From: Natronorubrum aibiense
GTDB taxonomy: Archaea > Halobacteriota > Halobacteria > Halobacteriales > Natrialbaceae
DNA length: 64,000 nt
Reading direction: 5' to 3'
NCBI RefSeq assembly: GCF_009392895.1
Contig: NZ_CP045488.1
Span: forward strand, 1,612,001 to 1,676,000
Shown here: piece after piece, positions 44,719 through 48,860 of the stretch
Position numbering within the stretch: position 1 is the first letter of the stretch
Layout of the letters: each line of letters opens with the position of its first letter
Position numbers and translations under genes: made by a program
Notes under the pieces: model-generated
Databases searched by the model: none
What the model saw: only the letters and a program-made list of their open reading frames with translations
What the model was told of the DNA's origin: nothing

Positions 44719-45819
44719 ATGAGCGTCATCGAGTCAGTCCATACCGACCACGGCGCGACGTTCGGCGACCGCGACGGGCGAACGATCGTCGAACATTTCG
44801 GACGGCCCGAGCGAACGCATCTCGCGGTTCGCAACGGTGTCGGCCTTCTCGAACTCGCCTACGGCGTGGTCGTCGTCGAGGGCGATGATCGCCTCGAGTA
44901 CGTCGACAACGTCGTCTCGAACCGCGTCCCCACCGAAGACGGACAGGGCTGTTACGCGCTCGTCCTCGATCCACAGGGCGGGATCGAGGTCGAACTCTAT
45001 GTCTACAACGCTGGCGAGCGACTGTTGCTCTTTACGCCGCCGGCCGAAGCTCAACCGCTGGCCGAGGAGTGGTCCGAGAAAATCTTCATTCAGGACGTCG
45101 AGATTCGGGTTGCGACCGACGACTACGCGATCTTCGGGATTCATGGTCCCAAGGCGACGGAAAAGATCGCTAGCGTCCTCAACGGAGCTGCCTCGCCCGA
45201 CCAGCGCTACTCGTTCGTCCGCGGGACGATGGGCGACGAGGGCGTCTCCGTCATCCGAACCGACGCCCTCACCGGTGAAGAGAGCTACGAGGTCATCTGC
45301 GCGGCCGACGACGCCGAGGCCGTTTACGATACCCTCTTGAATCAGGGGTTGAACGCCGCCCCCTTCGGCTACCGAACCTTCGAGAGTCTCGCGCTCGAGG
45401 CCGGCTCACCGCTCTTTGACACGGAACTCGAGGGAACGCTCCCGAACGTCCTCGGCCTGCGAACCGCCCTCGACTTCGAGAAGGGCTGTTACGTCGGTCA
45501 GGAGGTCGTCTCCCGCGTCGAGAACCGTGGCCAGCCCAGCCGGAAACTCGTCGGCCTGACGCTCGAGACGGACGACGACGCCGCGGTCCCTGAATCCGGC
45601 GCAGCCGTCTTCGACGGCGACGCGTCCGTCGGCGAGGTTACGCGGGCTGGCGAGAGCCCATCACTCGAGACGGTCATCGCGCTCGCGCTCGTCGACTACG
45701 GCCTCGAAAGCGAGGCGCTGACGGTTCGTGTTGGCGGCGAGGAGATGCCCGCCACCGTCACCGCGTTGCCGTTCGTCGAGGGCTCGGATCAGTCGGGCCG
45801 ACTGCCCGACTATCAGTAG
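44719..45819 (+). CDS. YgfZ/GcvT-like folate-binding aminomethyltransferase-family protein
   Basis: 366 residues. Folate-binding GcvT fold with the YgfZ signature FEKGCYVGQEVVSR (K-G-C-Y-x-G-Q-E) at about residue 255, plus the usual GNGVGLLELAYGVV near the N-terminus and VALALVDYGL near the end. YgfZ proteins help Fe-S cluster and tRNA-modification chemistry using folate; the GcvT name covers glycine-cleavage T protein. Haloarchaea use tetrahydrofolate, so either role is possible. It is not part of a gcvH/gcvP cluster here. Confidence 0.9.
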   Translation: MSVIESVHTDHGATFGDRDGRTIVEHFGRPERTHLAVRNGVGLLELAYGVVVVEGDDRLEYVDNVVSNRVPTEDGQGCYALVLDPQGGIEVELYVYNAGERLLLFTPPAEAQPLAEEWSEKIFIQDVEIRVATDDYAIFGIHGPKATEKIASVLNGAASPDQRYSFVRGTMGDEGVSVIRTDALTGEESYEVICAADDAEAVYDTLLNQGLNAAPFGYRTFESLALEAGSPLFDTELEGTLPNVLGLRTALDFEKGCYVGQEVVSRVENRGQPSRKLVGLTLETDDDAAVPESGAAVFDGDASVGEVTRAGESPSLETVIALALVDYGLESEALTVRVGGEEMPATVTALPFVEGSDQSGRLPDYQ

Positions 45820-45845
45820 GTAGCCAGCGAGACGGTTTTCGTTAG

Positions 45846-46043
45846 TCCGAAGGAACGTCCTCAGAATCGCATGGCGCTTCTGATGGGCTGCGAAAATCGT
45901 CCGACGATTTTCGAACGCCCGTGGAGACTGCGACTGCTGTGGACACTGTTTCCGTGTCTGCAAGTCGCGTCGTTGAAACAGGAAGCCCCTGCCTCAAGGA
46001 ACGAGCGGCTGCCACCGCGAGTGAGTAGGCAGGGGTAGTTCAC
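45846..46043 (+). pseudogene. Relic of a tnpB 3' end with IS605-group right end
   Basis: A frame from about 45846 ends VETATAVDTVSVSASRVVETG, then SPCLKERAAATASE and a TAG at 46026-46028; this is the well-known C-terminus of a haloarchaeal IS1341-type TnpB. The stem CCCCTGCC (45986-45993)/GGCAGGGG (46028-46035) then GTAGTTCAC is the element's right end. Inside, a perfect hairpin CGAAAATCGT-CCG-ACGATTTTCG lies at 45891-45913. No RuvC or zinc-ribbon sequence remains; only about 60 codons survive. It is a fossil of an element different from the one at 10927-12730. Confidence 0.7.
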
Positions 46044-46094
46044 CACAACCTGCCCGTCCCGCAGTATTATCTGGAGTACCATGGTCGGTCCTGT

Positions 46095-47402
46095 ATGCGC
46101 TATCTGGAGGTGACGGTCCCGAAAGGGAAACGACAGGCTGTCATCGACATTCTCGAGGACGAAGGCATCGAGTACGTCGTCAGCGACGAAACCAGTGGTC
46201 GGGGATACACCGCAGTCGTCCGGTTTCCACTGCCGACGCGGGCCGTCGAACCGGTGCTCGATCGGCTCAGGCAGGCCGGAATCAGCGAGGATGCAAGCGT
46301 CGTCGTGATCGACGCCGAGACGGTGATCTCCGAGGAGTTTTCGACGCTTCGAGAGCAGTATAGTCACGGCGGACAGGCTGGTTCGCGCACCTCGAGGCAG
46401 GTCCTGCGAACGAAAGCCGACGAACTCACGCCGCCGTTTCCGATCTACGCCGTCATGTTGCTCATCAGCGCTGTCGTCGCCACCGCCGGGCTGCTCGCCG
46501 ACTCGCCGGCAGTCGTGATCGGCGCGATGGTCATCGCACCGCTGCTCGGGCCGGCGCTCGCCGCCAACGTCGGCATCGTCACCGGCGACGACCGGCTCAA
46601 ATCGACCGGGTTCAGCTACCAGATCGTCGGGGTGACGATGGTGATCGTCGCCTCGATCGCCCTCGCCGCGATCGCCCGGCTCGCGGGACTCGAACCTGCC
46701 GGCGTCGACATCGTCGTCGCCACCGAACTCCAAGAGCGGGTCGCGCCGAATCTGTTCTCGCTCGCGGTCGCACTCGGGGCCGGGATCGCCGGCATTCTGA
46801 GTCTCACGCGGGGGTTTTCGGAGGCGATCGTCGGTGTGATGATCGCCGCTGCACTGATCCCGCCGTCGGCCGCGGTCGGCATCACCGTCGCCTGGGGGAT
46901 GTACGGCGCGGCGACCGGGGCCGCCGTGCTCGTGATCGTCAACGTCCTCTCGATCAACCTCGCTGCGCTGGCGACCCTGTGGATCGCCGGCTACCGCCCG
47001 CAGGGGTTGTTCGAGGTGTCACCGACCCGCACGCCGACGTACACCTACGCGGCGATCTTCGGGATCGCGCTGCTGGTGTTGGCGGCCCCGTTGGCTGGCA
47101 TCACTCTGCTCGATTTCCACACGACCGAACTCGAGTCGGTTGCCGAGGAGGAAGCCGAGGCAGTGCTCGCCGACCCACAGTACGAGACCCGCGAGGTCGA
47201 CGACGTCGTGGTCGAACTCGACGGCAACTATCCGATCCAGTCGGTCGACCGGATCGTCATCACGGTCACCGGACGGACACCGGGACCGGAGCCGGGGCTC
47301 GCCGAGCGGCTCCACACGGCGATCAGCCAACATAGCGACGAGTCACTGGTCGTCGAGGTCCAGTACATCGTCGCCGAGCAACACGGCGACACTGGTGACT
47401 GA
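46095..47402 (+). CDS. DUF389/TIGR00341-type membrane protein
   Basis: 435 residues. Residues 1-85 are a soluble ACT-like domain (MRYLEVTVPKGKRQAVIDILEDEGIEYVVSDE, FPLPTRAVEPVLDRL). Then about seven membrane helices: FPIYAVMLLISAVVATAGLL, VVIGAMVIAPLLGPALAANVG, and onwards through GAGIAGILSLTRGFSEAIVGVMIAAALIPPSAAVGI. A C-terminal soluble domain follows (DDVVVELDGNYPIQSVDRIVITVTG). This is the DUF389 family; role unknown, possibly transport. Own start after the tnpB relic. Confidence 0.92.
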   Translation: MRYLEVTVPKGKRQAVIDILEDEGIEYVVSDETSGRGYTAVVRFPLPTRAVEPVLDRLRQAGISEDASVVVIDAETVISEEFSTLREQYSHGGQAGSRTSRQVLRTKADELTPPFPIYAVMLLISAVVATAGLLADSPAVVIGAMVIAPLLGPALAANVGIVTGDDRLKSTGFSYQIVGVTMVIVASIALAAIARLAGLEPAGVDIVVATELQERVAPNLFSLAVALGAGIAGILSLTRGFSEAIVGVMIAAALIPPSAAVGITVAWGMYGAATGAAVLVIVNVLSINLAALATLWIAGYRPQGLFEVSPTRTPTYTYAAIFGIALLVLAAPLAGITLLDFHTTELESVAEEEAEAVLADPQYETREVDDVVVELDGNYPIQSVDRIVITVTGRTPGPEPGLAERLHTAISQHSDESLVVEVQYIVAEQHGDTGD

Positions 47403-47462: not shown

Positions 47463-48860
47463 TTACGTCGCCGGCTTGACGTTCTGGTTCATCCGGAACA
47501 GGTTCTTCGGATCGTACGCGGCCTTGACCTCGGCCAGCCGTTGCTGGTTTGTCCCGTAGGCGAGGTTTTCCTCGCCTTCGTCCTCACTGATGAAGTTCAT
47601 GTAGACGCCGCCGGTCGCGTGCGGGGCCATAGCATCGAAGAATGCTCGAGCCCAGGCGATACAGCGGTTGTCATCCGCTGGATCCTCCCAGCGCGTGTGG
47701 ACGTTCATCGCGTACTCCGCATCCCGGTGTGGGTAGGCCGTCGCGTCCGCCGGGATGCGTTTCATCGCGCCGCCGAGTTGTCCGAAAAAGATCTCGGACT
47801 GCGGCGACGGCAACTCCTGTGCGTACTCGATTGCCGTCTCGATGGCCTCGTCCGAGAGCGTCCCGAAATTGTGTGACTTCCAGTAGTTCCGGGATCCCTC
47901 GGTGAGCAGTGGATCGAACGTTTGCTGGAACTCGGCGTACTGGTGTGGACTGACGACATCGGCGATCGGCTCGCCGTACTCCCGGATCGGGGCGAGCACG
48001 TTTTCGCCTTCTGCCACGTCACCGGCGTAGAACGGAACCACGACGAGGATGTCCTCACCGTGGATTTCCTCCGGGAGGAACGGAAGCGGTGGTGCCTTGC
48101 GCAGGACCATCCAGACGGCAGACTCGTCCGGTGCCGTTTCGTTGAAGTCCCGCACGTGTCGGAGGACGTCTGGTGCATCCGCGCCGTGGTAGACGACCAA
48201 TCCGGCGAGGACCTCCGGCCCGACCTCGTGGAGGTCGAACTCGAAGGCGGTGACGACACCGAAGTTGCCGCCGCCGCCACGAACGCCCCAGAACAACTCC
48301 TCGTTCTCGTCCTCACTCGCGTGACGCAGCGTGCCGTCGGCGGTGACGATGTCGACCGACCGCAGGTTGTCCACGGTCATGCCGTACGTACGAGTGAGCC
48401 AACCGAATCCGCCGCCGAGCGTCAGTCCCGCGACGCCGGTCGTCGAGTTGATTCCCAGTGGCGTCGCCAGCCCGAACGCCTGCGTCTCGTGGTCGACGTC
48501 GGCGAGGGTCGCCCCCGGCTCGACTCGAGCCGTCTTCCCTTCCGGATCGACCTGCACCGACCGCATCGCAGAGAGGTCGAGCATTAGGCCGTCGTTACAG
48601 ACCGCGTTCCCCGCGATGTTGTGTCCGGCACCGCGAATCGCGAGCACCACGTCTTGCTCCCGGGCGAAGTTCACCGCCGCGATTACGTCCGAGACACCCA
48701 TCGCTCGAGCGATGAGTGCCGGCCGTCGGTCGATCATGCCGTTCCAGATTGCTCGCGTCTCGTCGTAGTTCGGATCCTCGGGACGGAGCAACTCACCGTG
48801 AAGCCCCTCGCCGAATCCGTCTATTGCACCGTCGTCTACGGGTGTGGTAGTGGCTGCCAT
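47463..48860 (-). CDS. Berberine-bridge-type FAD oxidoreductase (copy A)
   Basis: 465 residues. PCMH-type FAD-binding domain: RPALIARAMGVSDVIAAVNFAREQ, VLAIRGAGHNIAGNAVCNDGLMLDLSAM (His in AGHN is the usual 8-alpha covalent FAD ligand), TTGVAGLTLGGGFGWLTRTYGMTVDNL, and SVDIVTADG. The 6-S-cysteinyl ligand seen in doubly linked homologues is not present. The C-terminal BBE motif YDPKNLFRMNQNV ends the protein. Substrate unknown (sugar or aromatic alcohol oxidases belong here). Divergent from its paralogue at 49079 over about 220 bp. Confidence 0.93.
   Translation of the reverse strand: MAATTTPVDDGAIDGFGEGLHGELLRPEDPNYDETRAIWNGMIDRRPALIARAMGVSDVIAAVNFAREQDVVLAIRGAGHNIAGNAVCNDGLMLDLSAMRSVQVDPEGKTARVEPGATLADVDHETQAFGLATPLGINSTTGVAGLTLGGGFGWLTRTYGMTVDNLRSVDIVTADGTLRHASEDENEELFWGVRGGGGNFGVVTAFEFDLHEVGPEVLAGLVVYHGADAPDVLRHVRDFNETAPDESAVWMVLRKAPPLPFLPEEIHGEDILVVVPFYAGDVAEGENVLAPIREYGEPIADVVSPHQYAEFQQTFDPLLTEGSRNYWKSHNFGTLSDEAIETAIEYAQELPSPQSEIFFGQLGGAMKRIPADATAYPHRDAEYAMNVHTRWEDPADDNRCIAWARAFFDAMAPHATGGVYMNFISEDEGEENLAYGTNQQRLAEVKAAYDPKNLFRMNQNVKPAT

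Follow-up and report, generated by a model that had tools for sequence, protein, structure and literature searches.

Background

IS200/IS605 transposases make single-strand cuts at a left and a right site, each paired with guide bases at the foot of a hairpin, and the donor molecule is resealed. Rickettsia palindromic elements (RPEs) are short palindromic DNA segments inserted in frame in unrelated protein genes. In the portions of PMC3119063 available to us, the PATEs of Haloquadratum are described as transposase-free elements derived from IS605 that produce no target duplication. The available portions of PMC3733652 present the CGTC REPs, beside which RPEs are mentioned, as head-to-head dimers that occur in five bacterial phyla, also inside genes, and that have no dedicated transposase and no association with transposase genes. 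In haloarchaea, the right ends of tnpB genes overlap omega RNAs, and these RNAs are expressed and carry the right-end hairpin (PMC12558985, from the part of the text at hand).

The locus described here is the remnant of a TnpB-only element, and in its left third it carries a double hairpin that recurs in unrelated genes and is the more interesting part of the two. We analyzed it within a stretch of 64,000 nucleotides (the window), which corresponds to C1:1612001-1676000 of the 4.35-Mb source genome, G000.

The remnant and its parents

The 198 bp at 45846-46043, an interval that the initial annotation had delimited correctly to the base, stem from a haloarchaeal element of the IS1341 type (TnpB-only, IS200/IS605 superfamily), of which they comprise a 3' tnpB fragment and the right end. 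The features of the locus, with the evidence for each in parentheses, are as follows.

44719-45819, + strand: upstream GcvT/YgfZ-like gene, co-directional, its stop 26 bp before the remnant (PF01571, PF08669)
45842-45845, + strand: target tetranucleotide TTAG, directly left of the remnant (equal flank length in G006; partial base match in G008 by eye)
45846-46043, + strand: IS1341-type right-end remnant, 198 bp (97-98% identity to the ends of L002 and L003)
45846-46028, + strand: last 60 tnpB codons and TAG, C-terminal to OrfB_IS605 and TNB (parent comparison, Pfam)
45856-45918, + strand: REP-dimer-like double hairpin in the tnpB 3' end, hairpin 1 at 45861-45883 and hairpin 2 at 45891-45913 (covariation in 12 copies; found in unrelated genes and genomes)
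45982-45984, + strand: GAA at the hairpin foot, candidate right guide, pairing with TTC of GTTCAC (minimum-energy fold)
45986-46035, + strand: right-end hairpin with a 9-bp outer stem and an inner stem-loop (covariation in 32 right ends; fold)
46038-46043, + strand: GTTCAC, putative right-end cleavage motif (right boundary at empty sites; two copies in the 1502-bp parent)
46044-46063, + strand: flank starting CACAACCTGCCC, which, on transcription of the remnant, would serve as omega-RNA guide (directly 3' of GTTCAC)
46095-47402, + strand: downstream gene for a DUF389 protein (PF04087), preceded by a TATTAT box at 46065, to the right of the remnant

A BLAST search matched the remnant to two further loci of its own genome at 97-98% identity, L002 (98%, 4 differences in 198 positions) and L003 (97%, 6 differences in 198), each of which holds a full-length, intact tnpB of 444 codons, the two encoded proteins being 96.8% identical. 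Compared with both parents the remnant has two unique changes, at its positions 32 and 90, and none in its last 100 nt. Its 60 codons correspond to residues 385-444 of the 444-aa parent and end in a TAG stop at 46026-46028, in agreement with the earlier description of about 60 codons of a haloarchaeal TnpB C-terminus. That description had also noted the lack of RuvC and zinc ribbon, and this holds: the Pfam matches of the parent TnpB, OrfB_IS605 (residues 190-293) and TNB (307-372), both lie wholly N-terminal of the part that remains, and a Pfam scan of the remnant itself gave no match. The tnpB sequence (60 C-terminal codons of a parent with OrfB_IS605 and TNB) and the entry 3' of a short target that was not duplicated (TTAG at the remnant, TTTAG at L002, both read from empty sites in G006) are those of the IS200/IS605 superfamily, IS1341 type; of the subterminal hairpins that such elements have at both ends, the remnant has the right one, the native left end being missing. 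Since the native left end and 384 of the 444 codons are absent, the remnant is not autonomous.

Insertion site and boundaries

In G006, a genome of the same genus, the site is empty and the flanks lie exactly 198 bp closer together than in the window. Ungapped comparison of these flanks gave 10 of 17 identical bases on the left and 9 of 12 on the right of the junction; in G008, read by eye, the corresponding counts were 10 of 17 (8 of the last 10) and 8 of 12, and the ten bases to the left of the junction, placed by eye, read TGTTCGTCAG vs TTTTCGTTAG. Conservation among relatives is poor immediately to the left of the junction, so the flushness of the left edge depends mainly on the equal flank length. 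The site was empty in all three relatives that were read (G001, G006 and G008), with neither duplication nor loss visible in G006 and G008. The flanks that match in G003, G004, G007 and G009 are separated by 0.6-3.5 kb, and G002 and G005 gave a match for the left one only. The initial annotation had proposed to look for an intact element at this locus in close relatives: the three relatives are empty there, and the intact copies are L002 and L003, elsewhere in the same genome. A leftover of the native left end at 45820-45845 was also considered and is unlikely, the bases there fitting the native flank of G008 by eye.

The extent of the full element can be read from L002 (boundaries are marked here by slashes), where G006 has the empty site CCTGCTTTAG/CCGGCATCC and the source genome has CCTGCTTTAG/element/CCGACATCC. 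The element so defined, TTTAG/CTGAAAG...GTTCAC/, is 1502 bp long and has no target duplication. L003 has the same right end as L002, but on the left G006 reads TTTGC in place of a conserved target. At the foot of their left-end hairpin, both L002 and L003 have CTAA, the complement of TTAG; L004, a relative at 70% identity, has GTAA at this place, and the left-end stretch folded alone is no more stable than shuffled sequences (z 0.48). Within the 1502-bp parent the motif GTTCAC occurs only twice, at the true end and at the point just before the remnant starts. The junction, TTAG/TCC, was formed with no bases shared between its donors, TTAG/CTG and GTTCAC/TCC. When TTAG, TCCGAA and the start of the hairpin were combined into one pattern and searched in 125 genomes of the family, the remnant gave the sole exact match, and nine other matches with 1-2 mismatches have TCAC, TTAC or ATAC where the remnant has TTAG. 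The uniqueness of the exact junction among these genomes indicates that it probably arose in one event.

The right end

The arms of the right-end stem, CCCCTGCCT (45986-45994) and AGGCAGGGG (46027-46035), pair perfectly over 9 bp, and the tnpB stop overlaps the 3' arm. The initial annotation had placed the stop within a perfect stem followed by GTTCAC, all of which stands, and had given the stem 8 bp, which is one too few. The RNA folds of 45846-46063 (z -3.3) and of 45975-46043 (z -3.2) were each more stable than 200 of 200 shuffles. Among all 32 distinct right ends that we harvested, imperfect stems included, 96.2% of the stem cells are paired and 26 cells are double-changed, compared with a shuffle mean of 7.0 (0 of 500 shuffles); with the partners slid by 1-3 columns, 50-66% of the cells pair and there is at most one double change. 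In a subset of 23 of the 32, with several imperfect stems left out, the values are 98.9% paired and 21 double changes (0 of 500). Free mutation of this stem among relatives, which had been named beforehand as an observation that would speak against a kept RNA end, was therefore not seen, at the level of the family. Because at least 13 of the 32 right ends have tnpB sequence upstream, the covariation testifies to constraint on the right end of the family and not on the remnant itself. The pattern used for the harvest demanded GGAAG and TAG(T/A)TCAC, so that the invariance of these letters carries no weight and that of GAA and TTC is no evidence for a guide role.

To judge from the sequence, the remnant keeps a complete right end, presumably an omega-RNA scaffold together with a guide taken from its own right flank, and it shows the conserved hairpin directly before the guide that a functional omega RNA would have. 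The earlier view of the locus as a tnpB 3' fragment with the right end that encodes the omega RNA scaffold is correct as to the fragment and the complete right end, the RNA-coding role being attributed by parallel with the haloarchaeal tnpB right ends reported in the available part of PMC12558985. Searching Rfam with the remnant gave no match, either at the gathering score or at E values up to 1. Bacterial-type promoters were absent near the remnant, and two terminator-like sites lie near it on the - strand, vs 0.4 expected.

Origin of the remnant

Two origins had been offered in the initial annotation, namely plain decay or retention of the RNA-coding end. Its observation is confirmed and its interpretation is partly supported: decay fits poorly with a left edge flush with TTAG and a start exactly after the only internal GTTCAC, and a likelier third origin was missing. 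As the remnant begins and ends at transposon cutting sites, this third origin, in which IS200/IS605-type cutting left the omega-RNA end behind by partial excision (or by mini-insertion), is likelier than either decay or a kept RNA, and we give it a probability of roughly 0.55. In our view the remnant is more likely a precise stump than a random fossil.

Partial excision would have proceeded as follows, the enzyme and the order of events being what we infer. A 1502-bp IS1341-type element would have entered behind TTAG, between the GcvT/YgfZ-like and the DUF389 genes, and IS200/IS605-type cutting and resealing would have removed the part from the left boundary to the internal GTTCAC, so that the last 198 bp stayed in place with the joint TTAG/TCCGAAGG. 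The same product could have arisen if a 198-nt circle, cut at both GTTCAC copies, had inserted behind TTAG. The double hairpin would be a passenger in either case, already in frame in the parent tnpB before the trimming, and the stump, if transcribed, might provide an RNA that an intact TnpB of the same genome could load in trans. The genome contains six loci of Y1 transposases (PF01797), five of them free of internal stops, and none is tied to the element of the remnant. There is no right-end-like hairpin before the internal GTTCAC (DNA fold z -0.3), and the transposase would for this reason have had to accept a cryptic site. The fold of the left end (z 0.48), the foot GTAA of L004 and the target TTTGC of L003 in G006 also count against partial excision, and we found no analogue of this single event. 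If partial excision is the right reading, it suggests that TnpB-only elements may be trimmed to an omega-RNA-bearing stump through a cryptic internal right-end site, and such trimming would be a possible route to orphan guide-RNA loci beside intact TnpB genes.

Plain decay, in which a random deletion took the 5' part and the right end is merely yet to be deleted, is the best of the other explanations, and we regard it as unlikely. Truncations of the 5' part of tnpB with other breakpoints do exist in the genus (for example L044 in G004, from about residue 333), and core deletions of IS605-type elements are common in Haloquadratum according to the available text of PMC3119063, but the deletions which that text details were repeat-mediated, whereas the junction at the remnant has no microhomology. 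Decay would moreover require two coincidences, a left edge flush with the target and a second breakpoint at the single internal GTTCAC among 1502 positions.

Slightly less credible is a PATE-like mini-element, in which the 198-bp unit would move by itself, its embedded double hairpin standing in for the left end. Entry behind TTAG with no duplication, palindromes near both ends and a length too short for a transposase are all as in PATEs, and HqIRS71 likewise holds C-terminal coding sequence (both from the portions of PMC3119063 at hand); other short forms were also seen by eye, L037 in the same genome and L059 in G008. Against this, the unit is present as a single copy whose exact junction, searched as a pattern with the hairpin start, was found nowhere else in the 125 family genomes, by eye no CTAA stands beside hairpin 1 to match TTAG, and the two near-identical copies that the genome holds have their full length. 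A family of 198-bp copies, whether MITE or PATE, was considered as well and is out, since L002 and L003 are full-length tnpB genes and the junction is unique.

That the stump, whatever its origin, has been kept as an orphan omega RNA, transcribed from the upstream gene and either directing the TnpB of L002 or L003 to cut those copies of the site that are empty in a polyploid cell or serving a host role, is quite improbable: the complete right end with no remnant-only substitution in its last 100 nt, the two intact TnpB genes, the position 26 bp behind a co-directional gene and the expression of haloarchaeal omega RNAs (PMC12558985, in the part available) speak for it, whereas the empty site in G001, G006 and G008 gives no sign of long-term retention, and two unique changes are too few for selection to be tested.

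The double hairpin and its spread

A CGTC-tagged double hairpin of 60-63 bp, which does not appear in the initial annotation, makes up the left third of the remnant. This unit is a head-to-head dimer with the consensus CGTC[C/A]TCAGAA...AACG[C/T], in which the CGTC tag lies outside the stem; as modelled, the stems have 10 bp and the loops 3 nt, and an A-T pair starts the stem only in the CGTCATCAGAA form (for example in L164 and L166-L168). An alignment of 12 copies, from which the partial copies L059, L069 and L074 were left out, contained 12 double-changed cells compared with a shuffle mean of 3.3 (0 of 500 shuffles). A second form, with the outer stem CGAGGCG/CGCCTCG, showed 3 double-changed cells over three stems in 11 copies (1 of 500). 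Some tnpB genes of the same group are free of the double hairpin (L004, L005 and L008), and solo copies outside recognizable genes exist (for example L067).

With E values up to 0.001 a covariance model matched 120 of the 125 family genomes, and with E values up to 1e-8 it matched 232 of 293 in the order; these counts are to be read as the spread of an architecture and not of one lineage, the weaker matches including related double hairpins from the termini of other elements (such as L117-L120). A strict 23-mer scan of the named genomes found five loci, and plasmid records searched with the insert peptide gave no match at E values up to 0.1.

Three observations on other elements were made alongside this survey. 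Four copies of another element in the source genome (L117, L118, L119 and L120, on C1, C2 and C4), three of them with near-identical flanks, have a comparable CGTCCTCAGAACGC double hairpin, with ACG(A/G)CGGGATTCTCTC behind it, which suggests that several element families share the double-hairpin architecture. In L169, L170, L171 and L173 (from G030, G043, G106 and G050, respectively) units lie just inside an apparent IS1341-type left end (the reverse complement of ...GGGGATACAGCG), and IS1341-type elements seem to collect double hairpins at both ends. Finally, a TnpB-type protein from another group, with a Cas12f1-like TNB domain, has a unit in frame close to its C-terminus (L068:1172-1231; G009 C2:53671-53730), followed by an unrelated tail, also in frame.

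Double hairpins inside protein genes

We examined 14 loci, 40 more picked by hand from the match list of the family and 13 from other families of the order; a tnpB match lay nearby in 14 of the 40 family loci and in 5 of the 13 others. The longest open reading frame opposite to the model strand had a Pfam family in 26 of 30 loci, 25 of them not TnpB-type (L162 is TnpB-type; L143, L156, L157 and L161 had no family). Six further opposite-strand frames yielded four with a family, of which L247, L248 and L249 are not TnpB-type and L176 is, L160 and L110 having none. As a check for bias, 21 same-strand frames were scanned against Pfam, and none had a family (0 of 21). The non-tnpB hosts supported by Pfam thus number 28 among 36 opposite-strand frames, and in all of them the unit is read on one strand. 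In the aligned tnpB copies the unit is read from the other strand, and in L068, which is TnpB-type, from the model strand. Of the 28 hosts, 27 share one reading phase, though between three and five of the six frames of the unit are open. The exception in phase is L249, in which the unit occupies residues 6-26 of a stop-to-stop frame and stands perhaps before the true start.

With respect to the domains of these 28 hosts, the unit was spanned by one match in 11, lay between matches in 7 and fell in a match of two stretches in 3 (L154, L155 and L101, the best match only being shown), and in the remaining 7 a match was present on one side only (L153, which is partial, its frame ending soon after the unit, L163, L165, L179, L108, L247 and L249). 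Among the hosts are MenB (ECH_1), NadC, class I tRNA synthetases, polymerase IV (IMS), an Lhr-type helicase, PurK, an ABC transporter, LigT/ThpR, acyl-CoA and aldehyde dehydrogenases and Trm56, and several of the 28 are orthologues with the unit at one site (menB 2, nadC 2, aldehyde dehydrogenase 2, thpR 3, FAD oxidase 2). The insert peptide is acidic and serine-rich, for example RVRESQSDSRSPSEVQSTSED or DVRKSFALSSQSESQSDSDD.

Insert-free orthologues of in-frame insertions were found for menB and for the FAD oxidase. The menB of the source genome carries a full in-frame insert (L006:1501-1563; G000 C1:3067547-3067609) that is absent from eight genomes of the same family, six of them of the genus; in three genomes of the genus (G002, G004 and G005) there is an intermediate linker that resembles the flanks of the insert and that is either core-deleted or older than the core. 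The FAD-linked oxidases of L165 (G082) and L179 (G104) have 19 extra codons near the N-terminus that are lacking in the homologue of the window (47463-48860, - strand). In thpR a 57-nt unit lies between GACGT repeats in three genomes. An exception to the in-frame pattern is L177 (G108 C26:14869-14927), where a 59-nt unit shifts, by eye, the frame of a plasmid-like gene.

Comparison with known systems

With IS1341-type elements the remnant shares the right-end hairpin, the GTTCAC end, the TTAG target, the absence of target duplication and the overlap of tnpB 3' coding sequence with the right end, and it differs from them in having lost the left end and 384 of 444 codons. Like PATEs, as far as the available portions of PMC3119063 describe them, it has no transposase gene, has near-terminal palindromes, made no target duplication and descends from the IS605 type. 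The terminal-only forms of PATEs arose in that description by fusion of terminal palindromes through repeat-mediated deletion, whereas the break of the remnant lies at an internal right-end motif, and the remnant has no native left end and is a single copy. A PATE would be mobile as a unit, with several copies bounded by the same two ends; the exact junction of the remnant, searched together with the hairpin start, is unique in the 125 family genomes.

A PATE-like terminal-only form was noted by eye elsewhere in the source genome, at L037:478-532 (G000 C1:1146477-1146531), where GAGGGCGCTAAG, resembling the left end of the complete element, stands before a right end.

The double hairpin itself is comparable to three kinds of small repeats, and we found no published haloarchaeal report of such elements in the open-access literature searched, as far as its accessible text goes. 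SMR-A of Haloquadratum is also small, transposase-free and frequent in IS605-type elements and PATEs; it is set apart by its description, in the portions of PMC3119063 at hand, as a repeat of about 110 bp with inverted terminal repeats, with no mention there of in-frame inserts in genes. RPEs resemble the haloarchaeal unit as in-frame inserts in unrelated genes, a likeness of habit, and they belong to another domain of life; here the insert encodes an acidic, serine-rich peptide and is read in one phase in 27 of 28 Pfam-supported frames. Haloarchaeal genes for tRNA synthetase, polymerase IV, MenB, PurK and other proteins carry, in this sense, in-frame palindromic inserts like those of Rickettsia.

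The closest likeness in form is to the dimers of the CGTC REPs, which, in the available portions of PMC3733652, also have CGTC outside the hairpin, stand head to head with the tags outward and lie inside genes, including housekeeping and repair genes. For the further marks of that superfamily, stems of 8-9 bp started by A-T, loops of 4-5 nt and a CCA tail, the comparison is ambiguous, the haloarchaeal unit having 10-bp stems and 3-nt loops as modelled; unlike the bacterial dimers it occurs widely within a single order of haloarchaea and, in one form, lies inside tnpB. The unit at 45856-45918 thus has the tag, the dimer and the intragenic position of a CGTC REP and departs from the absence of any association with transposase genes, and because one form lies inside tnpB and 14 of 40 loci are near a tnpB match, we do not file it as a member of that group. 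It is conceivable, as a tentative reading that we hold to be less probable than its contrary, that the double hairpin of the remnant belongs to an order-wide haloarchaeal family of CGTC-tagged REP dimers, inserted in frame with a preferred strand and phase in housekeeping genes, that may spread by the single-strand machinery of IS200/IS605; we consider such mobilization because the tnpB/omega-RNA end of IS1341 elements harbors one of its forms. If this were true, the family would link CGTC REPs to a family of transposases, a connection so far missing. Bacterial CGTC REPs are reported, in the text of PMC3733652 at hand, to have no dedicated transposase, and a haloarchaeal unit inside an IS605-type element makes the question of their mobility directly testable.
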